Part shown: piece by piece, positions 14,471 to 23,932 of the stretch | Layout of the letters: the number at the start of each line of letters is the position of its first letter | How positions within the stretch are numbered: the stretch's first letter is position 1 | From: a virus | Direction: 5' to 3' (one strand) | Virus record (IMG/VR): IMGVR_UViG_3300043449_000494 | Span: 1-30,990 of that record | Length of the DNA: 30,990 nucleotides | The notes under the pieces: generated by a model | Database searches by the model: none | Told to the model about the DNA's origin: nothing | What the model saw: only the letters and a program-made list of their open reading frames with translations | Position numbers and translations under genes: made by a program

Positions 14471-14650
14471 ATGGCCGAACGCAAAGTTTGGATTGATGCA
14501 ACACGTCTAACGCCCAAAGAACAACAGGTCTATGATCTATTCCGTAAGGGCTTTAGAGTTAAAGACATCGCTGTGATTCTTAGCATTACGCCAAGCGCAG
14601 CGCGGACAAGACTAGCTCTAGCAAAGGATAAGGTGCGCTGTGGAGGATAA
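14471..14650 (+). CDS. Small LuxR/sigma-region-4-like HTH protein
   Basis: 59 residues. The central part LTPKEQQVYDLFRKGFRVKD then IAVILSITPSAARTRLALAK fits the four-helix LuxR/sigma-4-like DNA-binding fold: LTPKE start, xxVYDLFRKG helix, a turn, and SAARTRLALA as recognition helix. There is no sensor or dimerisation domain, so it is a bare DNA-binding module. It lies after the two hairpins and before small hypothetical genes, with an 11-base overlap into the next gene. A likely role is phage gene control. AGATAAGAAG before the ATG is a weak ribosome binding site. A similar small HTH gene lies in the minus-strand operon at 21390-21593. Confidence 0.6.
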   Translation: MAERKVWIDATRLTPKEQQVYDLFRKGFRVKDIAVILSITPSAARTRLALAKDKVRCGG

Positions 14651-21085: not shown

Positions 21086-21412
21086 TCAATCAACACCGAC
21101 ACTAGCACCGTCAGCGCGCTTTGCTCTTTTGTATTGTTTGCCATCTCTTATTGCCTCCCAACATCTGACACCATGGATCACGGTCGTATGATCCCGCTTG
21201 AATATGCGCGCTAGTTTTAGATAGCTTGCGTCTGTCTCTTGTCGTGCGCGCCACATGGCTTTATGGCGCGCTTTGACGATCTTGCTTCGCCGCTTGTGGC
21301 TTACAATGTCTGACGGGAATAGCTGAAACTCGTCAGCCACTTCCGCGATTATGTCACGAATGAACACATCCCCCTCTCTTTCTGTATTTTTATCCCACCA
21401 TGCGGAACGCAT
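21086..21412 (-). CDS. Stand-alone DnaA domain IV-like DNA-binding protein
   Basis: 108 residues. Residues ~21-90 follow the DnaA C-terminal domain: IIAEVADEFQLFPSDIVSHK, KRRSKIVKARHKAMWRARQE, an SYLKLARIF helix and the signature KRDHTTVIHGV (DHTTV at 74-78). The basic KRRS...AR loop and DHTTV residues are those that contact DnaA boxes in bacterial DnaA. The ATPase and other DnaA domains are absent. It should bind DNA without ATP-driven assembly, as an origin marker, a competitor of host DnaA, or a transcription factor. GGAG lies 8-9 bases before the ATG. Penultimate candidate gene of the minus operon and the last one that is firm. Confidence 0.85.
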   Translation of the reverse strand: MRSAWWDKNTEREGDVFIRDIIAEVADEFQLFPSDIVSHKRRSKIVKARHKAMWRARQETDASYLKLARIFKRDHTTVIHGVRCWEAIRDGKQYKRAKRADGASVGVD

Positions 21413-21593
21413 CCTGAAGCTCCAGTTTTTCTTTTATTACTTTCATACGTGATGCAATGCTGGCGGGTAGTTGGTTCATCTCTTTGCCGATCTGATGATT
21501 AGTTAGCCCTTGGCAACGAAGCTCCCATATGCGCTTCTCATAGGGCGTTAGTGCAGCCGGATCTTTGAGATGTCTTTGCGGTTCTATTGTCAT
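21390..21593 (-). CDS. Small LuxR/sigma-4-like HTH protein
   Basis: 67 residues from the ATG that overlaps the stop of the previous gene (ATGA). LTPYEKRIWELRCQGLTNHQ then IGKEMNQLPASIASRMKVIK fits a LuxR-type helix-turn-helix: LTPYE, a WELRCQGLTN turn, IGKEM, and SIASRMKVIKEKL as recognition helix. As with the plus-strand 59-residue protein at 14471, only the DNA-binding unit is present. It directly precedes the DnaA-domain gene with a 23-base overlap. Probably a phage transcription regulator. Confidence 0.65.
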   Translation of the reverse strand: MTIEPQRHLKDPAALTPYEKRIWELRCQGLTNHQIGKEMNQLPASIASRMKVIKEKLELQDAFRMVG

Positions 21594-21775
21594 TGTTTTT
21601 GTCTCTCTCGTTCTATCTTTATCCAATCGTCATTTTTTAACGCCGATTTTAAATCCTCGTGTTTCATGTATGTTGCAACTAGAGCTTCGATTTGCCCCTC
21701 TAGCTCATAGCATCGGTTTATTAGACTAAGGGTGCGCTTTTTCTCGCGCCTATAGCGTTTCTTTAGGCTTTTCAT
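21590..21775 (-). CDS. Small basic coiled-coil protein
   Basis: 61 residues. Very basic N-terminus (MKSLKKRYRREKKRTLSLIN) followed by a helix with heptad spacing (RCYELEGQIEALVATYMKHE). It could bind nucleic acid or partner proteins; no family is recognised. Both ends overlap neighbours by ATGA, supporting its reality. Confidence 0.55.
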   Translation of the reverse strand: MKSLKKRYRREKKRTLSLINRCYELEGQIEALVATYMKHEDLKSALKNDDWIKIERERQKQ

Positions 21776-22955: not shown

Positions 22956-22974
22956 TGTTGATTTATTACAGTTA
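22956..22974 (-). repeat. 19-base intergenic repeat, copy 1
   Basis: Minus strand reads TAACTGTAATAAATCAACA. Its TAA is the clamp gene stop, and it lies 16 bases before the start of the DUF7249-like gene. Identical to the copy at 23543-23561. Possible operator, promoter part or mRNA element. Confidence 0.6.
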
Positions 22975-23526
22975 AAGCGCCCATGATGGCGCGCTATCCA
23001 TGCCAGCAAATTGAACGCGCATCGGCATCAGCAAACCAAAGCCGTCAATGTCAGGGCCGAATGTGATTAGAGCGGCTGCGCAGCCATTGTGCGCGATGCG
23101 CGTCGGTGTCCCTTTGCCTAGCGCCTTAGCTATTTTGGCAAAGTCACCCATGTAGGACAAATTAAACTGCGCAATCTCTCCGCTTGGCTCTTTGGGCACA
23201 ATGCGCCGCCATTCGGGGAAGGTTCCGTTAATTGGTTCAAAGATCATATTGCCTAGCATGTATTGCGCGTCATTGATCTTACCTAATTCGACGGTTTCTT
23301 CTTTAGTTTTTAGCGCGTTTACGGTGTCGCTTGGAATTATAATATCAATCGGAGCGCCGTCGTATGTCTCAGACTGCCTAAATGCTACCGCCCGATGTCC
23401 ATCAGTTGCGACGATAAACACGCCTGTTTCATTTGCTTGGATTGCCACGCCCTTAAGATAATAGCGCGTCTCTTCTTTAGAGACGGCAAGCACGGCTGCT
23501 TTAAGATAGTTTACGTTAAGTTTCAT
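22972..23526 (-). CDS. Two-domain beta sliding-clamp homologue
   Basis: 184 residues. TRYYLKGVAIQANETGVFIV then ATDGHRAVAFR, DIIIPSDTV and FPEWRRIVP align with domain II of bacterial DNA polymerase III beta (E. coli RYYLNG...VATDGHR...FPDYRRVLP). The C-terminal part ends in LLMPMRV, like the VMPMRL end of domain III. Domain I is missing and domain III is shortened; bacterial clamps are ~365 residues. It could form a trimeric processivity ring, work with host clamp, or block it. It lies on the opposite strand from the phage polymerase gene. ATG is preceded by GGAAAGG. Confidence 0.82.
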   Translation of the reverse strand: MKLNVNYLKAAVLAVSKEETRYYLKGVAIQANETGVFIVATDGHRAVAFRQSETYDGAPIDIIIPSDTVNALKTKEETVELGKINDAQYMLGNMIFEPINGTFPEWRRIVPKEPSGEIAQFNLSYMGDFAKIAKALGKGTPTRIAHNGCAAALITFGPDIDGFGLLMPMRVQFAGMDSAPSWAL

Positions 23527-23542
23527 TTTACTTTACCTTTCC

Positions 23543-23561
23543 TGTTGATTTATTACAGTTA
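23543..23561 (-). repeat. 19-base intergenic repeat, copy 2
   Basis: Minus strand TAACTGTAATAAATCAACA, identical to copy 1. The TAA is the stop of the 68-residue gene, and the clamp ATG follows 17 bases after the repeat. Confidence 0.6.
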
Positions 23562-23913: not shown

Positions 23914-23932
23914 TGTTGATTTGTTACAAGTA
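23914..23932 (-). repeat. 19-base intergenic repeat, degenerate copy 3
   Basis: Minus strand TACTTGTAACAAATCAACA, matching copies 1 and 2 at 16 of 19 bases, without a stop codon role. It lies 35 bases before the GTG start of the first minus-strand gene. Confidence 0.5.

Follow-up and report, generated by a model that had tools for sequence, protein, structure and literature searches.

Our results suggest that the gene at positions 22,972 to 23,526 (minus strand) of the window, the whole stretch of 30,990 bases analysed here and a complete IMG/VR record, encodes a ring-less fragment of the bacterial β clamp. We propose that this protein, which we call the short clamp, has been cut down to the peptide-pocket unit, made up of domain II and the C-terminal half of domain III (D3b), and that it binds the clamp-binding motifs (CBMs) of host proteins, likely as a competitor. 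We favour this reading with somewhat less than even confidence. Sliding clamps have been described as six-domain rings in which the pocket and the ring act together; a widespread family with the pocket and without the ring would suggest that both functions are separable.

Judging from its full-length relatives, its purifying selection (dN/dS 0.06-0.22) and the good ribosome-binding site AGGAAAGG upstream of its start codon (23,536 to 23,543, minus strand), this is a real gene. The original prediction had placed an open reading frame of 184 residues at 22,972 to 23,526; the coordinates and the length were correct, and we add that the gene runs on the minus strand (ATG start, TAA stop). The plus strand across the same interval is closed by many stops. 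The gene was assigned by its match to PF02767, its match to the phrog_3007 profile and its full-length relatives, of which close ones have 94 and 75% identity to the window protein. Note that a 19-base repeat, TAACTGTAATAAATCAACA, is found on the minus strand at 22,956 to 22,974 and 23,543 to 23,561, with a degenerate copy at 23,914 to 23,932, where none is expected by chance; it starts at the stop codons of the short-clamp gene and of its upstream neighbour.

In Pfam searches the window protein matched the central DnaN domain (PF02767) alone, above the cut-off (7.4e-10), and the equivalog model TIGR00663 of NCBI fell short of its cut-off of 137.65 bits, with a score of 53. The significant matches in a sequence search of the PDB were β clamps, over domain II, and the top ones include the Caulobacter clamp. 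When aligned with E. coli DnaN, the protein consists of domain II (residues 1-115; 23,182 to 23,526), with two beta-alpha-beta-beta-beta motifs, then D3b (residues 116-171, FNLSY...MPMRV; 23,014 to 23,181), and finally a C-terminal tail of 13 residues, QFAGMDSAPSWAL (22,975 to 23,013), all on the minus strand. No counterpart of domain I or of the N-terminal half of domain III (D3a) is present. Thus, the claim that this is a β homologue with domain II and without domain I was borne out by the presence of PF02767 and the absence of PF00712. Domain III is indeed shortened, and only D3b is kept, but the protein does not end at MPMRV as had been proposed, since the tail follows it.

The same architecture was seen in the relatives: in Pfam, 46 of 46 scanned carry the central DnaN domain, and the N- and C-terminal domains were found in none of them. 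The D3b sequence score by local alignment was z 2.7 in the window protein and up to 13 in relatives; the D3a score was z -0.8 in the window protein and about 0 in nearly all relatives. D3b was therefore favoured in nearly all of them, and D3a was rejected as the identity of the third motif. After Pro111 a linker of 7-11 residues is found in nearly all relatives, compared to the approximately 59 residues of D3a in ring clamps. The possibility that a separate gene encodes domain I was also rejected, because PF00712 was found neither elsewhere in the window nor in the records of the two nearest relatives. Salmonella phage STGO-35-1 (L009:6001-6537) is the sole relative with a marked secondary D3a-like stretch, which lies in its D3b (AAKLFNPKFEGVR against AAILSNEKFRGVR); judged by sequence, this D3b is possibly a recombinant of both halves of domain III.

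To model the fold, the window protein was submitted as a monomer to AlphaFold2 with a 46-member alignment, and the model had a pLDDT of 93.5 and a pTM of 0.89. The last block, covering the tail, had a pLDDT of 91, so the tail is predicted confidently. The original prediction had put forward the monomer model as a check, and this check returned a β-type fold: in VIA-align, residues 1-171 superposed on residues 128-366 of E. coli β (about 166 residues, 2.2-2.5 Å, Z 14-17). A distant relative (L082) gave about 166 residues at 2.2-2.4 Å in the same superposition, and its C-terminal tail is predicted to be disordered. Across the family, about half of the relatives have a P-x-W(A) ending after MPMR, and in other lineages the tail is absent or disordered. 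Since the model superposes on this part of β, it preserves the geometry of the peptide pocket at the junction of domains II and III, and domain II and D3b are predicted to retain the relative placement that forms it. The ring-lining helices are also retained in the model, in which the first strand of the third motif is unformed.

The residues of the pocket and the conserved dimer-interface residues of DnaN, Ile78, Phe106, Ile272 and Leu273, have been listed (PMC11139829). All four interface residues fall in the absent domain I and D3a; both ring-closing surfaces are absent from the short clamp. Most positions of the pocket (subsites I and II) are conserved, and those of V344 and M364 vary. Subsite I is represented by TDGHR (residues 41-45; 23,392 to 23,406; E. 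coli T172-R176) and PEWRRI (residues 104-109; 23,200 to 23,217; E. coli P242, R246 and V247), subsite II by FNLSY (residues 121-125; 23,152 to 23,166; E. coli N320 and Y323), and both by MPMRV (residues 167-171; 23,014 to 23,028; E. coli M362-L366), all on the minus strand. Among 52 relatives below 80% identity, the pocket columns had a mean entropy of 0.86 bits and the remaining columns one of 2.43; when column sets were drawn at random 100,000 times, no set reached a value as low. Pocket residues account for eight of the ten most conserved columns (R152, L155, T172, G174, H175, P242, P363 and R365), and the near-invariant positions of the family are these eight together with R246, Y323 and M362. 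Note that the conservation of some pocket residues may reflect folding, and that pocket residues are also conserved in ring clamps.

Each chain contains three beta-alpha-beta-beta-beta motifs, or 1.5 domains, and not the two domains initially proposed. A trimer would thus have 4.5 domains instead of six, and only a tetramer gives six. The trimeric two-domain ring was rejected on this count and on the absent interfaces, and with 1.5 domains per chain the idea of a natural half-way form between β and PCNA or gp45 was not supported either. A true sliding clamp for the phage replisome could still be built as a homo-oligomer, the simplest being a tetramer with 12 motifs and six domain equivalents, and the retained ring-lining helices would suit it. 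We regard this as improbable, because both natural ring-closing faces are gone and because most family members have Ala or Gly at the helix position of E. coli Leu325, which gives no suggestion of a new hydrophobic interface. The phage polymerases also argue against it. The CBM consensus (Q-phi-x-[LM]-[FL] or Q-phi-x-[LM]-x-[FL]) was found in none of 29 PolA homologues from loci with the short clamp, and shuffled PolA sequences would be expected to contain about four. The search of the phage polymerase that the original prediction had suggested was likewise negative, with no canonical motif in the PolA of the window. Moreover, models of family A, B and C polymerases had no matches in Hafnia phage yong1, STGO-35-1, Skarpretter, phiHSIC and SHI, all of them searched as complete records, so the short clamp occurs independently of a recognisable phage polymerase. 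These results disfavour a canonical processivity factor for the phage PolA, as had been envisaged, and make a dedicated phage-polymerase clamp unlikely as the general role of the family, although the motif may be degenerate or the polymerase divergent.

Other readings retain the pocket and give it a different use. The protein could be a ring-less tether or adaptor, whose pocket would hold a host enzyme with a CBM (polymerase, ligase or clamp loader) and whose lysine-bearing helix face would touch DNA or the phage initiator, thereby recruiting host enzymes to phage DNA, much as the monomeric UL42 serves its own polymerase. In support of this, the gene adjoins polA in BcepC6B and Acinetobacter phage 4316 (polA, short clamp, nuclease, helicase), and in the lambdoid Hafnia phage yong1 it has cII on one side and an O-like initiator gene on the other. 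K9 and K131 are K or R in 88% and 85% of relatives, positions at which the ring clamps compared have mostly acidic or neutral residues; these family-specific lysines hint at a further contact, perhaps with DNA. The median net charge of the short clamps is -1, compared to -5 for the corresponding portion of cellular DnaN, so the short clamps are the less acidic of the two. However, the family is near neutral (median pI 6.5, not strongly basic; 5.7 in the window protein), whereas UL42-type clamps have been described as rich in positive charge (PMC9690074), and in many phages the gene is distant from the replication genes. We consider the tether or adaptor unlikely, if worth keeping in mind. Less probable still is that the partner of the pocket is a phage protein and not a host protein. 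In lambdoid phages this could be CII, whose C-terminal motif would be bound and whose stability or activity would change. The last six residues of the yong1 CII, which is encoded directly upstream of the short clamp, are QVTMNF and match the CBM consensus perfectly. However, the CII proteins of lambda (QIQMEF) and HK97 (QIDMQF) end alike, and these phages are not known here to carry a short clamp, so motif and short clamp are not coupled; in addition, no CII was recognised in the window, where the sole motif match among the scanned proteins is internal, in a virion-region protein. Finally, early annotations of the family as a 'DNA Pol III b subunit fragment' (Bcep781) and a 'possible moron' (SO-1) would suit a decaying, functionless remnant of a captured host dnaN. 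This we find hardly credible: the same end points recur across many and diverse phages and the pocket is near-invariant, so this reading is contradicted by purifying selection and family-wide conservation.

The reading that we prefer is the soluble competitor, and among the roles initially put forward a decoy for clamp partners is the predicted one that fits best. The short clamp is probably monomeric, and a ring-less unit whose pocket is under strong selection most likely binds host CBMs. Binding would take place in solution, and during infection some host clamp partners would be taken from the host clamp on DNA; candidate partners are the clamp-loader delta subunit, Hda, repair polymerases, MutL and RecB, the last of these a recently validated clamp partner that uses the same pocket (PMC13254535). 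A monomer mutant of E. coli β cannot tether Pol III, and its binding to delta is approximately 50-fold tighter than that of the dimer (PMC11139829), so a monomeric pocket could compete well. Since no ring opening is needed, the short clamp may bind some partners tighter than the ring does. General competition has a difficulty in yong1, which is lambdoid and presumably uses the host Pol III: if the clamp loader were blocked strongly and in general, this phage itself would suffer, so either the competition would be selective or the protein would recruit partners rather than remove them. The position of the gene beside replication genes in several lineages also fits a helper role.

The family is large. 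In tblastn searches 241 GenBank phage records matched the short clamp, and in 126 of these a single place gave a coverage of 80% or more. A scan of IMG/VR confirmed at least 538 stretches, the best 80 of which hold open reading frames of the same design, with 180-225 residues. The window protein matched phrog_3007 at 4.5e-35 (residues 1-171 on positions 3-186 of the 190 in the profile) and fits the design of that family, domain II plus D3b with a short linker replacing D3a. A scan of genomes mostly returned full-length alphaproteobacterial DnaN, with a single short-type protein, L101, from a Thalassospira MAG. The evidence on a possible mimicry of the host clamp by domain II was mixed. The best PDB match of domain II follows the host in Acinetobacter phage 4316 and, with enterobacterial clamps, in STGO-35-1 and Sodalis phage SO-1; it differs from the host in Acinetobacter phage SHI and Pseudomonas phage USP_25. 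In databases the family goes under the names 'RusA-like resolvase' and 'DNA Pol III beta subunit'. The RusA-like Holliday junction resolvase was rejected, because Pfam matched DnaN domain II and found no RusA domain in the window protein or in the scanned family members; the RusA label in phrog_3007 and RefSeq thus appears to be a propagated annotation error. The short clamp had no match among defence systems. The family was already in databases, under other names, and the literature searched contained no functional study of short phage clamps and no paper on the design of domain II plus D3b.

Compared to bacterial DnaN (PF00712, PF02767 and PF02768; TIGR00663), the short clamp shares the fold and placement of domain II and D3b and the CBM pocket residues, but it has 184 residues instead of about 366, lacks domain I, D3a and the known dimer-interface residues, and carries an extra C-terminal tail. 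Bcep781 gp15, SO-1 gp7 and BcepC6B gp31, all in phrog_3007, have the same length, architecture and pocket as the window protein. The p081 protein of Rhizobium phage 16-3 (378 residues) is also a phage β homologue, but with the full three-domain length and sequence. The herpesvirus UL42, a monomeric processivity factor, is a clamp fold that works without a ring, and here the likeness is one of analogy only: UL42 is of the PCNA type and strongly basic, whereas the short clamp is near neutral overall but has the family-specific lysines K9 and K131. Bulk charge gave no clear support for a UL42-like direct clamp on DNA (median pI and net charge as above). Phage Gp168 (structure 7evp) acts on the clamp system too, but it binds the clamp itself, whereas the short clamp imitates the pocket of the clamp.

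It is possible, and we hold this a little more cautiously than the proposal for the window protein, that hundreds of phages use a bare host-clamp pocket as a soluble competitor that redirects the clamp loader, Hda, repair polymerases, MutL and RecBCD. If so, the short clamp would be a mimic of the whole pocket, the reverse of the known clamp-binding peptides and inhibitors, and a route of host takeover may hide behind a wrong database label. It would also supply a small natural reagent to trap clamp-binding proteins, and since family members occur in coliphages such as Skarpretter and Ivi, E. coli can be used as the test host.

The gene context varied between phages. In Bcep781, SO-1 and Ivi the short clamp is a lone divergent gene among head genes, and in the window it belongs to a minus-strand block of small genes, opposite polA and the primase-helicase. 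The same block encodes a stand-alone DnaA domain IV at 21,086 to 21,412 (minus strand; PF08299, 9e-20). A DnaA_C match was present in 13 of 33 records with a short clamp, and the named phages are not among the 13.

Finally, two observations were made alongside. Six lambdoid CII proteins (L182:361-654; L181:12306-12605; L183-L186) have Q-[IV]-x-[MI]-x-F as their last six residues; the hexameric CBM consensus is exact in five of the six tails and nearly so in phiEt88 (QITIEF). By this likeness the lambda CII may bind the host clamp, with a C-terminal tail that we take to be the FtsH degron as well. In the window, two tiny proteins, encoded at 14,471 to 14,650 (plus strand) and 21,390 to 21,626 (minus strand), resemble the helix-turn-helix of sigma-70 region 4 and GerE.
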